Part shown: one piece after another, positions 37,410 through 60,422 of the stretch
Layout: each line of letters starts with the position of its first letter
Position numbering within the stretch: the first letter of the stretch is position 1
Origin: Chitinophagaceae bacterium IBVUCB1
GTDB taxonomy: Bacteria > Bacteroidota > Bacteroidia > Chitinophagales > Chitinophagaceae
Assembly (NCBI GenBank): GCA_002127285.1
Contig: NFUW01000002.1
Span: forward strand, 1,523,630 to 1,587,629
Length of the DNA: 64,000 nucleotides
Direction of reading: 5' to 3'
Made by a program: the position numbers and the translations under genes
Notes under the pieces: model-generated
Seen by the model: the letters and a program-made list of their open reading frames with translations, nothing else
Databases searched by the model: none
Told to the model about the DNA's origin: nothing

Positions 37410-37442
37410 AATTGTTGCTTTTTTGTTGGATTAAAATTTTTG

Positions 37443-37516
37443 TAACGGAGAGGGGACTTGAACCCCTGACCCCCGGATTATGAGTCCGGTGCGCTAACCA
37501 ACTGCGCCACTCCGCG
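37443..37516 (-). tRNA. tRNA with CAT anticodon (Met or Ile2) inside the prophage tail operon
   Basis: A complete cloverleaf: D stem GCGC/GCGC, anticodon stem CCGGA/TCCGG with loop CTCATAA, T arm AGGGG-TTCAAGT-CCCCT. The acceptor has CGCGGAG against CTCCGTT, leaving a C1-U72 mismatch and a G2-U71 wobble, with A73. No CCA is encoded. It sits between the tail chaperone and a secreted-protein gene, in the same direction. Elongator Met versus Ile2 (lysidine) cannot be decided here. Confidence 0.9.
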
Positions 37517-51965: not shown

Positions 51966-52631
51966 TTAGTTTTTACCAAATATAGGACTGTTTTCATTTC
52001 TCTTAATAACGCCAGTTACTCTATATATGCTTCTAATGGCGCTTTTATGAATTAAGAATGGCTCATAATAAAACTTGCCCTTACGAGGGCCCTCTGCATA
52101 TACCATTACATTATCTGAATACAGTTCGTATGTTTCATCGTCTCCTGTTTTGAATAACCGTTTTAAATAACGATTATCCTCTGTTTCCACAACATACACT
52201 TTGCCATATTCAATAATTCCATCGTTTACTTTGCGTAATCCTACAACACAGCCACTTGGATAGTTTGGCGTCATGCTATTTCCATAAATTCTGATAGCAC
52301 ATTCGCTATCCCGTAATAAATCTCCTACGTCAATCATAGTTTTAGGTTTTGTTATAGGCATCATATCAGCTTCCGCAACTTGACTGCCTGCGATAGCCTC
52401 TACGTCATAGAATGGGATTGCATTTCGGTTCACATTTAGTTCACCATTCTTGTTTATATGTTCACTTATACTTGCTATTTGCAAGATAGTAATCTCGGTA
52501 CCTTTAGTGATTGCTTTAGACCCATTTTCCATTTTATTGACCATCTCTCTTGACATGCCAATCCTCTTACCAAAGTCCTCCTGACTTAGTCCTGTAGCGG
52601 TTCTTATGTTTTTTAGTTCTTGGCCAGTCAT
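51966..52631 (-). CDS. Phage repressor, HTH plus S24 (LexA-like) peptidase domain
   Basis: 221 residues. The N-terminal HTH (LKNIRTATGLSQEDFGKRIGMSREMVNKMENGSKAI) is Cro/C1 type. The C-terminal S24 domain has IYGNSMTPNYPSG with the nucleophile Ser, and NRYLKRLF with the catalytic Lys. It should hold lysogeny by binding the operators at 52648-52690 and undergo self-cleavage on DNA damage. It is divergent from the early operon. Confidence 0.93.
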   Translation of the reverse strand: MTGQELKNIRTATGLSQEDFGKRIGMSREMVNKMENGSKAITKGTEITILQIASISEHINKNGELNVNRNAIPFYDVEAIAGSQVAEADMMPITKPKTMIDVGDLLRDSECAIRIYGNSMTPNYPSGCVVGLRKVNDGIIEYGKVYVVETEDNRYLKRLFKTGDDETYELYSDNVMVYAEGPRKGKFYYEPFLIHKSAIRSIYRVTGVIKRNENSPIFGKN

Positions 52632-52647: not shown

Positions 52648-52692
52648 GTTCACATTTTATTTTGAAATGTGAACTTAGTTCACATATATTTG
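52648..52692. promoter_or_regulatory. Repressor operators overlapping the early promoter
   Basis: An inverted repeat GTTCACATTT/AAATGTGAAC spans 52648-52674, and a third half-site GTTCACATAT lies at 52678-52687. TTTG (52661-52664), a 20-base spacer and TATATTTG (52685-52692) form a canonical Bacteroidota -33/-7 promoter for the transposase operon, buried in the operators. Repressor binding would block it. Confidence 0.8.
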
Positions 52693-52719: not shown

Positions 52720-52911
52720 ATGTATGGAAATATGAATAAGGGCAAAAACAAAACGGACTATCAATTAATAGCAGAAACCTTTAATGTTTCCCCAGAGGCG
52801 GTGAGACAGGCATTAAAAAGACGTCGCTCATATCCAAATAACAATCTGGTTAAAGCATACGACAGGTTACAAAAAACAAAAATGTCAACCCTTAGAAAAA
52901 TGGTAGCATAA
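52720..52911 (+). CDS. Small Ner/Cro-like DNA-binding protein
   Basis: 63 residues from ATG 52720. An alternative ATG is at 52732, and earlier starts lie in the promoter. DYQLIAETFNVSPEAVRQALKRRRSY is a helix-turn-helix of the type found in Ner or Cro-like proteins. It is the first gene of the early operon, a position held by ner in Mu, where it represses early and repressor transcription. Its TAA overlaps the transposase ATG by one base. Confidence 0.65.
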   Translation: MYGNMNKGKNKTDYQLIAETFNVSPEAVRQALKRRRSYPNNNLVKAYDRLQKTKMSTLRKMVA

Positions 52912-55007
52912 TGCAGTACCACCCGCAAGACATATATATTCAAAACGATTACAACGCCAATACGTTGTGGGTGTCGCATAGGTTGTTATGTAGCGCCCTC
53001 AACATAAGCGAAGGCTACCTAAGCAAGTCTCGCTGCGAGTATAAAAAGAGCGTGAGCCCAGCACACCGCGAAAGGCAGGTATTGCCTGACACAGGCAAGT
53101 CTTGGCGATATGCAAAAATCAACAACAAGTTTTATTATGCCTATCCCAACATCCCCGACAAGCATCCTGCCCACTATCGCAGTAGCTTGCCGCCTGCAGA
53201 CGAACTGTTGTCTATTTACAGTGCATTCTTAACGGGTGGCAATATGCCGCAGGATGGCTTTGAAACACGTTTTAAAGCAGCTTTAAAAGAGGGCTACAAA
53301 GAATACCTGCATTGCTATAACGAATGTACACCCGCACAGCAAACCAACCTCGCCAAGTACGCTGCCATATTAGAGGCTTCTGTTAGATGGATACGTGAGC
53401 AGCACATCAATACCTCCAAGTACGATTTCTTTCAGTCGCTTGCTGAATTAGTAAAACATCATGCAGTACCCTACGCGCCTGAAAATGCAAGAGTACTGAA
53501 GAGCAAACTGCAGGAGGTAATAGATGGTGTGGCCATTACAGACATAGCCAAGCTGCCACGCATAGGCAACGCCAACCGCGAACAGTACAGTGAAGAGGAA
53601 GTAAAAGCATGGGTACTGCAGCTACGCGACATGGGCGCTAACTATACCAATCAATACATCATACAGAAGATAAAAGATATGTGCATGCTTACCTGCAAGC
53701 CTGCACCATCTAACAGATGGATTGGCTACATCATGCAGCAGCATAATGTAAAATATCTGACAGCACAGCAACGCTTTGGTAGCGACAGCCGTTTCGGCAG
53801 TATATACAGAGGGCATCAGCGTTTTGCTAACGCACTCTTTGCAGGCGACTGTTGGCAGGTGGATGGTACACGTATCAACATCATAGCGCATAAACAAACT
53901 TCTAATTCTGATGACGGCAAAAAACTTGTACAACAGAAATTCCTGTACATAGTGACAGTACGCGATGTGCATAGCGGCGATATTCTCGGCTATCACTACA
54001 GCGTAACGGAAGACAGGTGGGCAGTTCACAGCGCGGTAAAGATGGCTGCTAAGAATGCAGGGTATCTGCCATATGAAATCATCTTTGATAAATTCCCCGG
54101 ACACAACAGTGAAGAGGGCAATACCTTCTTAAAAGACCTTGAGCATTGGGGCGTAATAGTAACTATGTCTTCTGACGCCAATGTAAAGCCTGCACAGGAG
54201 CGTTTCTATGGCACATTACAGACCGTATTCATGCAAGAGAGCATGTTATACTACGGGCAAGGCATACGAAGCAGGCGCAACTACGCACACCGTAGCAAAG
54301 AATGGGTAGAGCGCATGTATAAAGAAGCCAACAAGTTGGGCTTTGACTTTGGGGATGCCTGTGCAGAGGCTACCCGCATACTGGAGGCATACCGTTATAC
54401 AGCATACAGCAAATGGAGCCGCAAGCATGCAGCCGTACACTACAGTCCTGTAGAGCTGCATGACATCAGCGAGAAGCCAAACGTGCGCACATTGGAGGCA
54501 CAGGATTATTGGTATCTCTTCGGCCTCAAGAAGCAATTGCCTATCAAACATCAGGGCTTGATAGAAACGGAGATAGCCAAGGTTACATATCGCTATCGCT
54601 GTACAGACTACAATATCATCAGCAATTACAGCCACGTATTGGTATGCTACGACTATGAAGACCTTAGCCAGATAATGATTTATGAACCCGGAGACGCGGT
54701 TATAAAACGCTACCTCGGCAGGGTAATGGAAGAGAAAGAAGCAATGCGTTATGGCCCCGATGCACAATGGTCGTTGATAGCAGAGCGAGAAGCGAAGATT
54801 AAAGAACTGGACGGCTATCGGGAGCAGGAACTGGAATACCGCAAAGCAGTAGGAGCTGAAGACATAACAGCCTTGCTGCACCCGATGATGATCAGCAAGA
54901 AGAACTACGAACAAACAGAAAGCCAGTACCTGCTGAATCAGGCACAACAAAACGAAACCTACAGCGATGGTGAAGACATCCATGTAGACATAAGAAACGG
55001 TTATTAA
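52911..55007 (+). CDS. MuA-like DDE transposase
   Basis: 698 residues. The N-terminal half has DNA-binding helices (WVSHRLLCSALNISEGYLSKSRC). The integrase core carries Asp318 (CWQVDGTR), Asp393 (EIIFDKFPGHNS) and Glu430 (KPAQERFYG), the DDE triad in the right spacing. A beta-barrel Mu-C domain follows with a C-terminal tail. It catalyses insertion and replicative transposition of the phage with the MuB-like ATPase. It should bind the repeats at the ends. Confidence 0.92.
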   Translation: MQYHPQDIYIQNDYNANTLWVSHRLLCSALNISEGYLSKSRCEYKKSVSPAHRERQVLPDTGKSWRYAKINNKFYYAYPNIPDKHPAHYRSSLPPADELLSIYSAFLTGGNMPQDGFETRFKAALKEGYKEYLHCYNECTPAQQTNLAKYAAILEASVRWIREQHINTSKYDFFQSLAELVKHHAVPYAPENARVLKSKLQEVIDGVAITDIAKLPRIGNANREQYSEEEVKAWVLQLRDMGANYTNQYIIQKIKDMCMLTCKPAPSNRWIGYIMQQHNVKYLTAQQRFGSDSRFGSIYRGHQRFANALFAGDCWQVDGTRINIIAHKQTSNSDDGKKLVQQKFLYIVTVRDVHSGDILGYHYSVTEDRWAVHSAVKMAAKNAGYLPYEIIFDKFPGHNSEEGNTFLKDLEHWGVIVTMSSDANVKPAQERFYGTLQTVFMQESMLYYGQGIRSRRNYAHRSKEWVERMYKEANKLGFDFGDACAEATRILEAYRYTAYSKWSRKHAAVHYSPVELHDISEKPNVRTLEAQDYWYLFGLKKQLPIKHQGLIETEIAKVTYRYRCTDYNIISNYSHVLVCYDYEDLSQIMIYEPGDAVIKRYLGRVMEEKEAMRYGPDAQWSLIAEREAKIKELDGYREQELEYRKAVGAEDITALLHPMMISKKNYEQTESQYLLNQAQQNETYSDGEDIHVDIRNGY

Positions 55008-55811: not shown

Positions 55812-56753
55812 ATGTCAGAAGCAACAAAAGTAAACAAACTAACGGATGAGCAAAAGCAGAGAATAGCCTCGCTCATCAAAAACGAAATTCGCCGCCTCGG
55901 CACCCAGAAGAAGGTTGCCATAAAATGTGGGGTAAGCGATGCAGCTATCGACCAGTTGAAAACCATGAAGTATCAGGCGCAGGGCGATGATATGTGGATC
56001 AAAGTAGGAAATGCGCTCGGATGGAAAGAAGACACATGGAAGATTGCCTACGACACTATCGATAGCAAGTCTGTGTTTGCGGTACTGAAAGATGCCAAAG
56101 AAAACAGCCTCTTCATACCTATTGCACAATCTGCAGGTGGTGGCAAGTCAAGCGGTATAGAAGCGTTTATGAACCAGCAAAACAGCAACGTCTTCTACAT
56201 AAGCTGCAAGGAATGGAACAAGCGAGAGCTGCTTTACAACTTGTGTATTGCCTTGGGCGTAGACCCGTCTCCGGGCTACCCGCAGGATATGCTGCTGGAG
56301 AAAGTGATAGACTTCTTTAAAGTGAGGCAAAACAAACCGCTGCTCATCATAGACCAGGCGAACAGCCTGAAGCCGAGTGTACTTACGTTCCTCATCTTCC
56401 TGTACAACGAGTGCGAGGACAGGCTCGGTGTAGTAATAGCAGGTACGGAAGAGCTGGAAAAGAAGATAAAGAAAGGGGTACGTCTCTCTTACAAAGGGTA
56501 CGACGAATTGGACAGCCGCTTAGGTAGAAGGTATGTGAAGCTGACAGGTGCAACACTTTCATGCGTTCGCAAAATATGCGCCATCAATGGCATTACAGAC
56601 CCCGATGTACAAGCATACATTTTTGACAAGTGTATGCCGGTATTGAAAGAGGTAGACAGCAACGGCACACCTACCAAAGTAAAAGTAGTTACAGACAAGC
56701 GGCTGATAAAGCGCGCAGTTAAGGCTTGGAAAATTCAAAATCAGGAGGACTGA
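55812..56753 (+). CDS. MuB-like AAA+ ATPase, transposition target selector
   Basis: 313 residues. An N-terminal HTH-like region (KEIRRLGTQKKVAIKCGVSDAAIDQLKT) precedes the ATPase with Walker A AQSAGGGKSSGIEAF around residue 110, Walker B PLLIIDQANSL around 180, and VVIAGTEELEKKIKK as sensor 1 region. MuB-type proteins form filaments on DNA, choose target sites and stimulate MuA. It follows the transposase in the early operon as in Mu. Confidence 0.9.
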   Translation: MSEATKVNKLTDEQKQRIASLIKNEIRRLGTQKKVAIKCGVSDAAIDQLKTMKYQAQGDDMWIKVGNALGWKEDTWKIAYDTIDSKSVFAVLKDAKENSLFIPIAQSAGGGKSSGIEAFMNQQNSNVFYISCKEWNKRELLYNLCIALGVDPSPGYPQDMLLEKVIDFFKVRQNKPLLIIDQANSLKPSVLTFLIFLYNECEDRLGVVIAGTEELEKKIKKGVRLSYKGYDELDSRLGRRYVKLTGATLSCVRKICAINGITDPDVQAYIFDKCMPVLKEVDSNGTPTKVKVVTDKRLIKRAVKAWKIQNQED

Positions 56754-57672: not shown

Positions 57673-58371
57673 ATGAGCAACATTAAGAATCTAACACCTG
57701 AAGAGAAAGAAGAACTCCGCCGCCAGTTTATGGAAGAAGAAAAACAAAAGGGCGAAAGAACAAAACAGGAGCGCAAAAATTACAAGACTTTGGTAAATAC
57801 AACCATCCCTGTTTTGTTCAAAGACTTGATGGCTGTCAGCGCAAACCTAAGTGCTGTTAAGAAGAAAGTGTTTGACGAACTGAAAACACTTGTAAGCCTG
57901 AAAGCCGAATTGTACGATGCGGAACTCGACCAGTTCAGCCACAGCTTCACAACAGAGGACGGCATCACCATTATTATCGGTCACAGATACAACGACGGAT
58001 GGGATGATACTGTAAACGTTGGTATCGAAAAAGTTGAAAAGTTTGTTTCCAGCATGGGCAAAGATGCTAATAGCAAAGCACTTGTAAAAACCATATTGCA
58101 GCTATTGGCGAAAGACAAGACTGGTGTATTGAAAGCAAGCAGGGTAATACAGCTTAAAAAACTGGCGGACGATACAGGCAATCAGGACTTCATTGATGCA
58201 ATAGAAATCATACAGTCTGCACACAGGCCAGTAAAAACAAAGGAGTTTGTAACGGTGCGCTATATCGACAATGATGGTAATAAAGTTGATTTGCCGCTGG
58301 ACATATCTGCTGCTGATTTTGAGCCTACAATCAAACAAGATGCAACGCCACCCGAAGAACCGCGCAGCTAA
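57673..58371 (+). CDS. DUF3164 family protein
   Basis: 232 residues. The helical middle has LFKDLMAVSANLSAVKKKVFDELKTLVSLKAELY and FTTEDGITIIIGHRYNDGWDDTVNVGIEKVEKFVSSM, the DUF3164 signature of transposable phages (Mu early region, historically called a sulfate-transporter-like protein). The C-terminal VTVRYIDNDGNKVDLPL is typical. Function unknown, but it is a reliable marker of Mu-type early operons. Confidence 0.85.
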   Translation: MSNIKNLTPEEKEELRRQFMEEEKQKGERTKQERKNYKTLVNTTIPVLFKDLMAVSANLSAVKKKVFDELKTLVSLKAELYDAELDQFSHSFTTEDGITIIIGHRYNDGWDDTVNVGIEKVEKFVSSMGKDANSKALVKTILQLLAKDKTGVLKASRVIQLKKLADDTGNQDFIDAIEIIQSAHRPVKTKEFVTVRYIDNDGNKVDLPLDISAADFEPTIKQDATPPEEPRS

Positions 58372-59336: not shown

Positions 59337-59774
59337 ATGAAACTCAACAAATTTTCTGCGGCCAACATGAGCCACATCCGTCAGAAAGCAAGCACCATTA
59401 GGCTGCAGCGTAAGGGAGCTAATATCATCAGCGACCTTGCCGTTGAATCTATCGGCCTCAAAGCAGGCGACAAGGTTTCTTTGGTACAGGACGAGGATAA
59501 CCCCTCAGACTGGTATTTGATGATTGATGAACAAGAGGGCTTTACCCTCCGTGCTGACAAAGACAGCAAACACTTGTCATTCAACTGTGCTGCATTATCA
59601 AACACGGTACTTGATGCGTGTTTTGACAATGTGTTTTCTGCCACTTTTAAGCTCATTACGGAGCCTAATAAATCGGGGGGGGTAAACTACTACCCAATCA
59701 TTTTGGCAGGCGCTATCGTCAGGGAATACGCGCAGCCTGACGGCTCAGATGGTGGTGAGCAAGAAGACCAGTAG
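59337..59774 (+). CDS. Early protein of unknown function with a G8 run
   Basis: 145 residues from ATG 59337. MKLNKFSAANMSHIRQKASTIRLQRKGANIISDLAVESIGLKAGDKVSLVQ starts with a helix and an AbrB-like beta (ISDLAVESIGLKAGDKVSLVQDE), which may be DNA-binding. A run of eight G (59675-59682) encodes GG-V. If it lost one G, TAA would follow at once. It precedes the RNA island. Confidence 0.55.
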   Translation: MKLNKFSAANMSHIRQKASTIRLQRKGANIISDLAVESIGLKAGDKVSLVQDEDNPSDWYLMIDEQEGFTLRADKDSKHLSFNCAALSNTVLDACFDNVFSATFKLITEPNKSGGVNYYPIILAGAIVREYAQPDGSDGGEQEDQ

Positions 59775-59833: not shown

Positions 59834-59915
59834 GGGCGGGTAGCTGAGAATGGATTAGCGATATGGCAACATCAATAAGTCCATATAGACGCAGGTTCGA
59901 ATCCTGCCCCGTCCA
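59834..59915 (+). tRNA. tRNA-like RNA with expanded 14-nt anticodon loop
   Basis: 82 bases. A 7-bp acceptor (GGGCGGG against CCCGTCC), T8-A9, D arm GCTG/TAGC with GG in the loop, 4-base variable loop and T arm GCAGG-TTCGAAT-CCTGC are all canonical. The anticodon stem is AT-rich (ATATGG/CCATAT) and closes a loop of 14 bases (CAACATCAATAAGT) with no standard anticodon placement. Discriminator A. It may be a decoy or an RNA-processing signal. Confidence 0.6.
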
Positions 59916-60132
59916 CCGCCTACTGGGATTGCAGTCGGTTTCTACCCAAGCTGCGCACATCGGAGTCGTTAGTTAGGCGATTACTGTTTGGTTACTCCAC
60001 CTTAAAAGGAGTCGACAAATCGGGAAGACGGTTGACACTCGGAAAGACGAGGGACAGTCGCAGCCTTAGCCGTAACATGCATGGCCACCGAAAATAGCGA
60101 TACAGCATGTTGACGTTGTGGAAAGACACATA
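59916..60132 (+). ncRNA. Structured RNA between two tRNA-like units
   Basis: 217 bases with no good reading frame. Hairpins with 4-bp stems close loops GAAAGA at 60038-60051 and 60117-60130 and GGAAGA at 60019-60032. A 7-bp helix AACATGC/GCATGTT joins 60074-60080 with 60105-60111. A bulged hairpin CCG...CGG sits at the 5' end. It may be released from the early transcript by RNase P and RNase Z acting on the flanking tRNA-like units. I do not recognise its family. A large phage RNA class such as GOLLD or ROOL should be tested. Confidence 0.45.
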
Positions 60133-60199
60133 GAGCAGTTGGCCGAGAGGTTAGGTACCGGGTTCCCGGATTACACAGGTTCGAATCCTGTACTGCTCG
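60133..60199 (+). tRNA. tRNA-like RNA lacking an anticodon loop
   Basis: 67 bases. A perfect 7-bp acceptor (GAGCAGT/ACTGCTC), T8-G9, D arm with GAGAGGTTA loop, 5-base variable loop and T arm ACAGG-TTCGAAT-CCTGT are canonical. The anticodon arm is only CCGG-GTTC-CCGG, a 4-bp stem with a tetraloop, so it cannot decode. Discriminator G, no CCA encoded. A following hairpin AACAGG/CCTGTT lies at about 60213-60228. Confidence 0.65.
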
Positions 60200-60263
60200 C
60201 GCATAGGGGTTACAACAGGCTGGCCTGTTCTCAGGTCGGCATTATTAAGAAAAACAAGAACTA

Positions 60264-60422
60264 ATGAAAGCAACAAACAGAAAAACAAGAAAGTGGTTGA
60301 AGTTAGAAAGGTTTTACCCTCCATTCGGAGTTGTGCGATGGGATAGTCGCGCATTGCAGATATATAGCAAAAAGACGAAAATAATGTGCCGAAATCTGGG
60401 CTGGTGTGATTTACCATTTTAA
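60264..60422 (+). CDS. 52-residue early peptide
   Basis: A 53-codon frame from ATG 60264 (MKATNRKTRKWLKLERFYPPFGVVRW ... NLGWCDLPF) to TAA 60422. The N-terminus is basic and the middle holds Pro and Trp. It is the first reading frame after the RNA island. Conservation is needed to be sure. Confidence 0.4.
   Translation: MKATNRKTRKWLKLERFYPPFGVVRWDSRALQIYSKKTKIMCRNLGWCDLPF

Follow-up and report, generated by a model that had tools for sequence, protein, structure and literature searches.

Top-half tRNA minihelices at gene junctions of phages from two phyla, and two tRNA-shaped RNAs with altered anticodon arms in a Mu-like prophage

Introduction

Transfer RNAs (tRNAs) that flank mitochondrial mRNAs are excised, as described in excerpts of PMC8601606. 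Excerpts of PMC11143913 and PMC11221534 describe ribonuclease P (RNase P) as binding the stacked acceptor and T stems of its substrates with 12 base pairs (bp) as a ruler, as cutting model hairpins composed of an acceptor stem, T stem and T-loop at the canonical site, and as pairing a GGU of its RNA with R73-C74-C75 of the substrate. Here we describe a repeated RNA element of about 40 nucleotides (nt), the minihelix, which has the form of the top half of a tRNA, together with two full-size tRNA-like RNAs, elements 1 and 2. All three lie in a Mu-like prophage in the 3.41 Mb genome (G000) of Chitinophagaceae bacterium IBVUCB1, within the 64,000-nt stretch of contig NFUW01000002.1 analysed here (positions 1,523,630 to 1,587,629; referred to below as the window).

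The minihelix is characterized by its structure, covariation, strand bias, placement between genes and tRNA-like 3′ tail. We infer, with moderate confidence, that minihelices are pre-tRNA mimics which mark cuts by host RNase P and ribonuclease Z (RNase Z) between phage genes. Elements 1 and 2 share with the minihelix the recognised half and the N73-C74 tail; that they are full-size relatives of the same family doing the same job is less certain.

Results

The minihelix comprises a 5-bp outer stem, a bulge of about 11 nt containing GG, a 6-7-bp inner stem and a T-loop; the D and anticodon arms are absent, and the GG of the bulge resembles G18G19 of a D-loop. We scanned 32 loci for an acceptor-like stem that closes a T-arm, requiring the stems and a TTCRA T-loop but leaving the GG and the tail free. 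Of its matches, 62 lie on the plus strand, which in loci with the transposase MuA is the strand of that gene, and 3 on the other; two of these three are the odd full-size RNAs of one locus (L081). Eleven controls, each with the loop motif altered, yielded between 0 and 5 matches per strand. We aligned 55 of the 57 scanned elements, omitting one each in L078 and L089 as doubtful. The bulge GG, the loop TTCGA and the C after the discriminator are invariant in all 55 copies; among the 34 distinct rows, 97.2% of the stem cells are paired and 9 of the 12 pairs have changed on both sides. The covariation score is 0.649, as against 0.135 for shuffled and at most 0.127 for slid controls. R1, a covariance model built from this alignment, matches 519 kb of sequence at 60 places; every match is on the plus strand, and 55 are the copies used to build it. 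The window minihelix, which precedes the full-size pair and whose first base doubles as the final A of a TAA stop codon, scores 45.4 bits (E 3.1e-7) with R1, a model built with this copy. The 55 minihelices thus present helices of 5 + 6-7 bp with a T-loop and elements 1 and 2 helices of 7 + 5 bp; we take the outer or acceptor stem to be stacked on the T stem.

The alignment of MuA relatives covers the window prophage and 26 further viral loci, 27 in all; 21 of the 26 contain at least one minihelix. These relatives belong to Bacteroidota and include Flavobacterium phage fF4, the only one among GenBank phages; two were found in 294 genomes of the family. The minihelix-bearing sequences point to Chryseobacterium and its kin. 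The 26 further MuA loci, and two further loci with a small protein, came from alignment searches; single-protein searches of viral and genome contigs returned only the own prophage or nothing confirmed, and a protein search of the genus returned only the own prophage. A strictly filtered R1 survey of the phylum, of low sensitivity and no measure of rarity, had matches in 2 of 395 genomes, including the window's own. Rfam 15 gave no match at E<=1 over the minihelix copies of L082, L089, L095 and L023 (one match lies elsewhere), and in four further loci the only matches over copies, in L176 and L181, were below threshold.

Placement was assessed in 97 unique contexts drawn from 142 of the 145 R1 matches, the three with E of 0.13 or worse being omitted. 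The minihelix starts between 1 nt inside and 5 nt past a stop codon in 62 contexts, and an ATG-initiated open reading frame (ORF) begins no more than 40 nt downstream in 86. A stop within 20 nt upstream is combined with such an ORF in 68/97 contexts but at only 4.1% of random positions, while 6/97 contexts lie inside an ORF of at least 80 aa compared with 62% of random positions. The genes downstream of 61 minihelices fall into 26 clusters, of which the transposase is the largest (10), and the minihelix is therefore not tied to one gene.

The bases that follow the outer stem are those of a tRNA end. We entered 102 of the 142 R1 matches into a tail set and kept 89 unique Bacteroidota-type contexts, which read R (89/89), C (89/89), A (88/89) and A (88/89). 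Host tRNA genes mostly lack an encoded CCA. C74 is present in all 34 distinct tRNA genes of the window genome, one being the prophage's own, and in 27/27 distinct tRNA genes of an Epilithonimonas genome with minihelices, where A75 (20) and A76 (17) predominate. Since host tRNA genes keep C74, the minihelix copies the end of the local pre-tRNA. The RNase P RNA of 4/4 hosts keeps GGU at the region aligned to P15, where the placement of P15 is our own reading. An intrinsic-terminator U run is absent after the minihelix: the RCAA of Bacteroidota copies continues into A/T-mixed, A-rich sequence, and the 12 bases after actinophage copies have no T run.

The element extends beyond Bacteroidota. A BLAST search with the fF4 copy also gave weak matches (E 1e-3 to 6e-2) to 24 records of Streptomyces phages, and one with a copy of Streptomyces phage Joe matched 132 records (107 Streptomyces, 22 Mycobacterium and 3 Gordonia). 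Seven actinophage loci, chosen because they contain a BLAST hit (Joe, phiScoe54, RedBear, Amela, Konstantine, Papyrus and VanLee), hold 64 coding-strand minihelices and a single one on the opposite strand, with 5 to 15 in stretches of 5-16 kb and GG in 64/64 bulges. Sixty of the 64 are free of annotated genes when same-strand genes are counted; the Joe copy at L176:464-504 lies inside an annotated gene of the opposite strand. Forty-two start 6-15 nt past a gene end, 49 end 33-51 nt before a gene start, and in 44 the distances to stop and start are at most 20 and 60 nt. R73 is found in 61/64 and C74 in 60/64.

A pattern of the bulge and T-arm only, in which the outer stem was not required, matched many contigs of IMG/VR. 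From at least 120 stretches we took 80, with 122 sites of which 116 have an inner stem of at least 5 bp; this pattern set is largely, not wholly, separate from the other sets, at least one contig (L249 = L101) being shared. In these 80 listed loci a perfect 5-bp outer stem lies near the predicted register at 115/116 sites, and in a single fixed register at 98, whereas shuffled partners with the same register freedom gave a mean of 18.9 and a maximum of 26 outer stems. Sites between a stop and a start make up 80/115, compared with 4.5% at random, and the tail has R73 in 110/115 and C74 in 109/115. Furthermore, where the bulge is 8-16 nt long with GG near its start, the base after the GG covaries with the sixth base of the T-loop (C-G or T-T) in 78/92 sites (shuffled mean 40.1, maximum 55), a paired change which is expected if the bulge touches the loop.

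Several observations adjoin this survey. Thirty-four GenBank Arthrobacter phage records match half of a Papyrus element in intergenic gaps, and the family may reach further among actinophages, Arthrobacter phages included. Matches to two Klebsiella phage records, of which one is placed within a primase gene, are probably chance hits. A GOLLD RNA (190 bits) occupies a gap without annotated genes in Papyrus (L180:14791-15250), downstream of minihelix-punctuated genes.

The position before a start codon, often straight after a stop, and a fairly regular spacing to that start (median 37 nt in the pattern set, mostly 11-29 nt in the 97 contexts) would also suit a translational element, in which a mimic of the tRNA elbow in the leader holds or recruits a ribosome or a tRNA-binding factor and is not cleaved. 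We find this doubtful, as the distances to the start in the 97 contexts range widely, from 3 to 116 nt, it is hard to see what translation would gain from an unpaired R73-C74 tail modelled on host tRNA genes, and minihelices occur in phages of both Bacteroidota and Actinobacteria, two groups which differ in their habits of translation initiation. It is also quite unlikely that minihelices jointly regulate the early operon, either by being bound by an RNA-binding protein of the phage or as put-like antitermination RNAs. Several copies per phage before genes of 26 different clusters, nearly all on the coding strand, would fit such a role; however, the conserved parts are general features of tRNA (T-loop, GG, stacked stems and R73-C74), and the same protein, for which no search was made, would be required across different phages of two phyla.

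We then turn to the full-size RNAs. The first-pass annotation had described elements 1 and 2 as tRNA-shaped RNAs in which the anticodon arm alone is abnormal, and both the sequence and the Rfam tRNA model RF00005 bear this out (Table 1). With cmscan each scores above the gathering score of 29: element 1 (59834-59915) 44.1 bits (E 4.1e-6) and element 2 (60133-60199) 51.5 bits (E 3.8e-8). Both D-loops keep GG, and the folds are more stable than shuffled sequences, with z of -2.49 (element 1) and -2.34 (element 2). Compared with the usual 17 nt, the anticodon arm is 9 nt longer in element 1 and 5 nt shorter in element 2, and loops of 14 and 4 nt take the place of the 7-nt decoding loop; the 14-nt loop may gain 2 pairs across a bulge. 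ARAGORN calls neither element, its sole call in the window being a normal tRNA-Met(CAT) among the prophage late genes (37442-37516, minus strand). An antisense role for the 14-nt loop was rejected: the genome holds 52 matches with at most two mismatches, one of them the loop itself, and 59 to the reversed control.

Table 1. Positions of the RNA elements, their parts and neighbouring features in the window
Feature	Position	Strand	Description
Minihelix	59269-59312	+	outer stem ACCTG/CAGGT, GG bulge, inner stem TCCCGG/CCGGGA, loop TTCGAGA, tail GCGA
Element 1, full-size tRNA-like	59834-59917	+	ends A73-C74-C75
Element 1, acceptor	59834-59840/59908-59914		7/7 paired, one pair G3:U70
Element 1, D arm	59843-59859		
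Element 1, anticodon arm	59861-59886	+	6-bp stem 59861-59866/59881-59886, 14-nt loop 59867-59880
Element 1, T arm	59891-59907		loop TTCGAAT, stem 5/5
Element 1, discriminator A73	59915		followed by CC
Spacer between elements 1 and 2	59918-60132	+	215 nt, no plus-strand ORF of at least 50 aa
Element 2, full-size tRNA-like	60133-60200	+	ends G73-C74
Element 2, acceptor	60133-60139/60192-60198		7/7 paired
Element 2, D arm	60142-60156		one of 4 pairs (13:22) is G-A
Element 2, anticodon arm	60158-60169	+	CCGG-GTTC-CCGG, 4 bp and GTTC tetraloop
Element 2, V loop			ATTAC
Element 2, T arm	60175-60191		loop TTCGAAT, stem 5/5
Element 2, discriminator G73	60199		followed by C
Candidate early promoter	52661-52692	+	TTTG-TANNTTTG, containing palindrome TGTGAACTTAGTTCACA; lies before the MuA gene
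Transposase (MuA) gene	52911-55007		
DNA transposition protein	55812-56753		
DUF3164 protein	57673-58371		
ORF before minihelix	59003-59269	+	stop codon abuts the minihelix
ORF after minihelix	59337-59774	+	

The same annotation had proposed a purpose for the altered arm, either as processing punctuation or as a decoy for anticodon nucleases. The former gains strong indirect support from the top-half family: a change confined to the anticodon arm fits a family that conserves only the acceptor/T half and a D-loop-like GG, and this strengthens the punctuation reading. The latter does not hold up. The tRNA shape is kept, as a decoy would need, but elements 1 and 2 have no normal anticodon loop to cut, and the recurring minihelix has no anticodon arm at all, which makes nuclease decoys highly improbable.

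Among 396 genomes of the order, one besides the window's own matched the region, over 28 bases, on an IMG/VR viral contig (G551, L070; also L072 and L075). The contig has little else in common with the window prophage: of 17 window ORFs compared with 16 kb of it, a single one has a match. The matching segment, L070:1231-1376, folds like a tRNA (z -2.89): the acceptor, D, T and variable arms are all present, and the anticodon arm is greatly expanded. It keeps the G3:U70 (the sole G:U pair of its acceptor), the A73 and the flanking ACTT and CACCG of element 1, and its acceptor pair 5:68 is A-U where element 1 has G-C, a compensatory change. The predicted covariation of the acceptor alongside a variable anticodon arm is therefore seen at this pair, in a single homologue. 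Two CAT tRNAs lie nearby in the G551 viral region (L070:1535-1608 and 1992-2063); the second is similar to the initiator tRNA of the host, differing from it by an A-U first pair in place of a mismatch and by a mismatch in the T stem.

Full-size elements with odd anticodon arms also recur in two other loci. L081 has two, labelled tRNA-??? by ARAGORN. The one in L093 has an enlarged anticodon arm and begins 8 nt past the stop of a 232-aa ORF, with its C74 19 nt before the next ATG (53-aa ORF); the full-size form can thus take the place of the minihelix at a stop-start junction. A tRNA-like RNA with a CAT-bearing 7-nt loop in L099 (2014-2088) ends about 27 nt before a transposase match.

These comparisons bear on a plainer explanation, in which elements 1 and 2 are decayed phage tRNA genes and insertions or deletions have damaged their anticodon arms. 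The elements occur once, in this prophage; no close copy of the pair was found in 59 relatives, where hits were mostly to the downstream terminator-like hairpin described below, in the 396 genomes of the order (one partial homologue) or in GenBank phages, DNA homologues of the 490-nt region were absent from GenBank phages and plasmids, and the spacer shows no structural excess. Against decay stand the 7/7 acceptors, 5/5 T stems and intact TTCGAAT loops, set beside arms changed by +9 and -5 nt, as well as the compensatory acceptor change in L070 and the recurrence of odd full-size elements in L081 (two) and L093. We consider degeneration doubtful.

A further proposal is that element 1 is a non-decoding alanyl-RNA, resembling transfer-messenger RNA (tmRNA) and charged by alanyl-tRNA synthetase (AlaRS) through G3:U70 and A73, with element 2 as a sister remnant. 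Both identity features are kept in the L070 homologue, and G3:U70 is confined to tRNA-Ala among the 34 distinct tRNAs of the window genome, which include one from the prophage itself. AlaRS charges minihelices, according to excerpts of PMC11221534, which we count in favour of this proposal, and element 1 matches the tmRNA model RF00023 with an E of 6e-8, albeit at 25.4 bits, far below the gathering score of 47. However, there is just one homologue, which scores 14.4 bits with that model; element 2 and the aligned minihelices lack G3:U70; an RNA of about 82 nt leaves little room for a tag reading frame; and the tmRNA model belongs to the same clan as tRNA. An alanyl-RNA is on these grounds unlikely.

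The Mu-like prophage has head and tail genes besides the transposase, DNA transposition protein and DUF3164 protein of Table 1, and both full-size RNAs sit in its early region. They occupy a gap of 489 bases without a plus-strand ORF of at least 50 aa, from the stop at 59774 to the ATG at 60264, whose two ends are overlapped by minus-strand ORFs of 71 and 136 aa. Homologues of the ORF that follows the window minihelix are likewise downstream of a minihelix in L080 and L099, and a distant homologue is found in L070. Two spacers of L070 gave z of 0.92 and -1.12 against shuffles, and a structured spacer is unsupported.

After element 2 comes a terminator-like hairpin at 60203-60247 (z -3.25). It is a copy of the hairpin GGCTGGCCTGTTCTCAGGTCGGC, which precedes a T run at several sites across the genus and the family, in some cases as a tandem pair; behind the window copy the T run is lost. 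No Rfam family matched this hairpin at gathering level in 10 loci. The pattern of the candidate early promoter matches 5 times in the window compared with 2.07 by chance, a weak excess, and has no later plus-strand match there. Its palindrome TGTGAACTTAGTTCACA is perhaps the operator for an ORF at 51966-52631 on the minus strand that by eye looks repressor-like.

Discussion

Collectively, the features kept by the minihelix (stacked stems of 11-12 bp, T-loop, GG and R73-C74) are what pre-tRNA-processing enzymes would be expected to read. Its usual setting is a series of genes sharing one direction, with the minihelix between the stop of one and the start of the next. In the model we favour, the GG of the bulge would dock on the T-loop as a D-loop does, host RNase P would cut the 5′ side of the minihelix, and RNase Z, or another 3′ enzyme, would cut the 3′ side, so that a polycistronic transcript would be split into separate mRNAs with clean ends, much as tRNAs punctuate mitochondrial transcripts. 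More speculatively, the window pair would be trimmed like tRNAs, releasing the 215-nt spacer between them. We propose that the anticodon arm of the full-size RNAs has drifted freely because nothing reads that arm.

A number of observations weigh against this model. A translational or protein-binding role would yield much of the same placement. Of the 97 contexts, 29 fail one of the two placement limits and, as noted above, six lie inside a long ORF, and in the pattern set 35/115 sites fail while 32/115 lie inside an ORF of at least 80 aa by mechanical count. The Bacteroidota phage tail is RCAA and not RCCA, so that one of the three RCC-GGU pairs is missing; element 1 has ACC. The window minihelix itself has the tail GCGA and folds barely beyond shuffles (z -1.12). 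The window pair lies off a tight stop-start junction: it begins 59 nt past a stop, and element 2 ends with the next ATG still 64 nt away. The spacer between the two is no more structured than shuffles (z -0.23). Both full-size RNAs of L081 are on the strand opposite MuA, and that of L093 folds no better than shuffles (z -0.56). Finally, R1 finds no minihelix in L021, which has the closest MuA (44%) among the 294 genomes of the family, or in L022, and 5 of the 26 other MuA loci lack one (L077, one of the five, has less than 1 kb after MuA); the minihelix is therefore dispensable.

We advance tentatively, at just under an even chance, the wider proposal that phages of at least two phyla share a top-half tRNA punctuation mark, set behind stop codons, at which host RNase P and RNase Z cut polycistronic transcripts one gene at a time, with the full-size window RNAs as intermediates between real tRNAs and this mark. 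If it is true, cultured phages carry from several to more than 10 unannotated intergenic tRNA mimics, an essential host enzyme takes part in phage genome expression, and bacterial viruses have a counterpart of mitochondrial tRNA punctuation. RNase P would gain a minimal substrate of natural origin that exists in numerous sequence variants, and the presence of odd ‘broken’ tRNAs in phages would have an explanation open to testing. Should cleavage prove wrong, it would still have to be explained why phages of two phyla conserve an RNA shaped like the tRNA elbow where their genes meet.

We did not find a tRNA mimic of this form and place described: no title or abstract in the part of the literature searched, which included no specific search of mycobacteriophage papers, describes the minihelix, and the terms ‘hairpin’ and ‘tRNA’ are absent from the phage fF4 and phiScoe papers. 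The minihelix may have been reported before under a different label, such as terminators. Ingham, Hunter and Smith (1995) reportedly described inverted repeats in the early region of phiC31 as terminators without poly-U; these possibly occupy the same intergenic places in related Streptomyces phages.

Among known systems, the closest in arrangement is mitochondrial punctuation, where the enzymes are RNase P and RNase Z. There, as here, tRNA-shaped marks stand between the genes of one long transcript; the mitochondrial marks are real decoding tRNAs, however, whereas the phage mark is a 40-nt top-half mimic whose cleavage is inferred here. Among animal nuclear RNAs, mascRNA-menRNA (RF01684), which is processed by RNase P and RNase Z, is tRNA-like with reduced arms, as is the minihelix. 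RF01684 is the best sub-threshold Rfam match over a Streptomyces-phage copy, but its score is far below threshold (26.2 vs 42.5 bits, E 0.38). In form, excerpts of PMC11143913 and PMC11221534 place the minihelix close to the RNase P model substrates pATSer, AT1 and MD1, with which it shares a stacked acceptor/T stem of about 12 bp and the R73-C74 tail, and with pATSer and AT1, though not the MD1 duplex, also the T-loop. Those models are synthetic, while the phage minihelix splits its helix into 5 + 6-7 bp, has a GG bulge and usually lacks C75. Phages themselves supply other pre-tRNA-like RNase P substrates, namely M3 RNA, the C4 antisense RNA and the T4 gene 32 mRNA, as excerpts of PMC11143913 relate; these are single RNAs, whereas the minihelix is a repeated intercistronic element.
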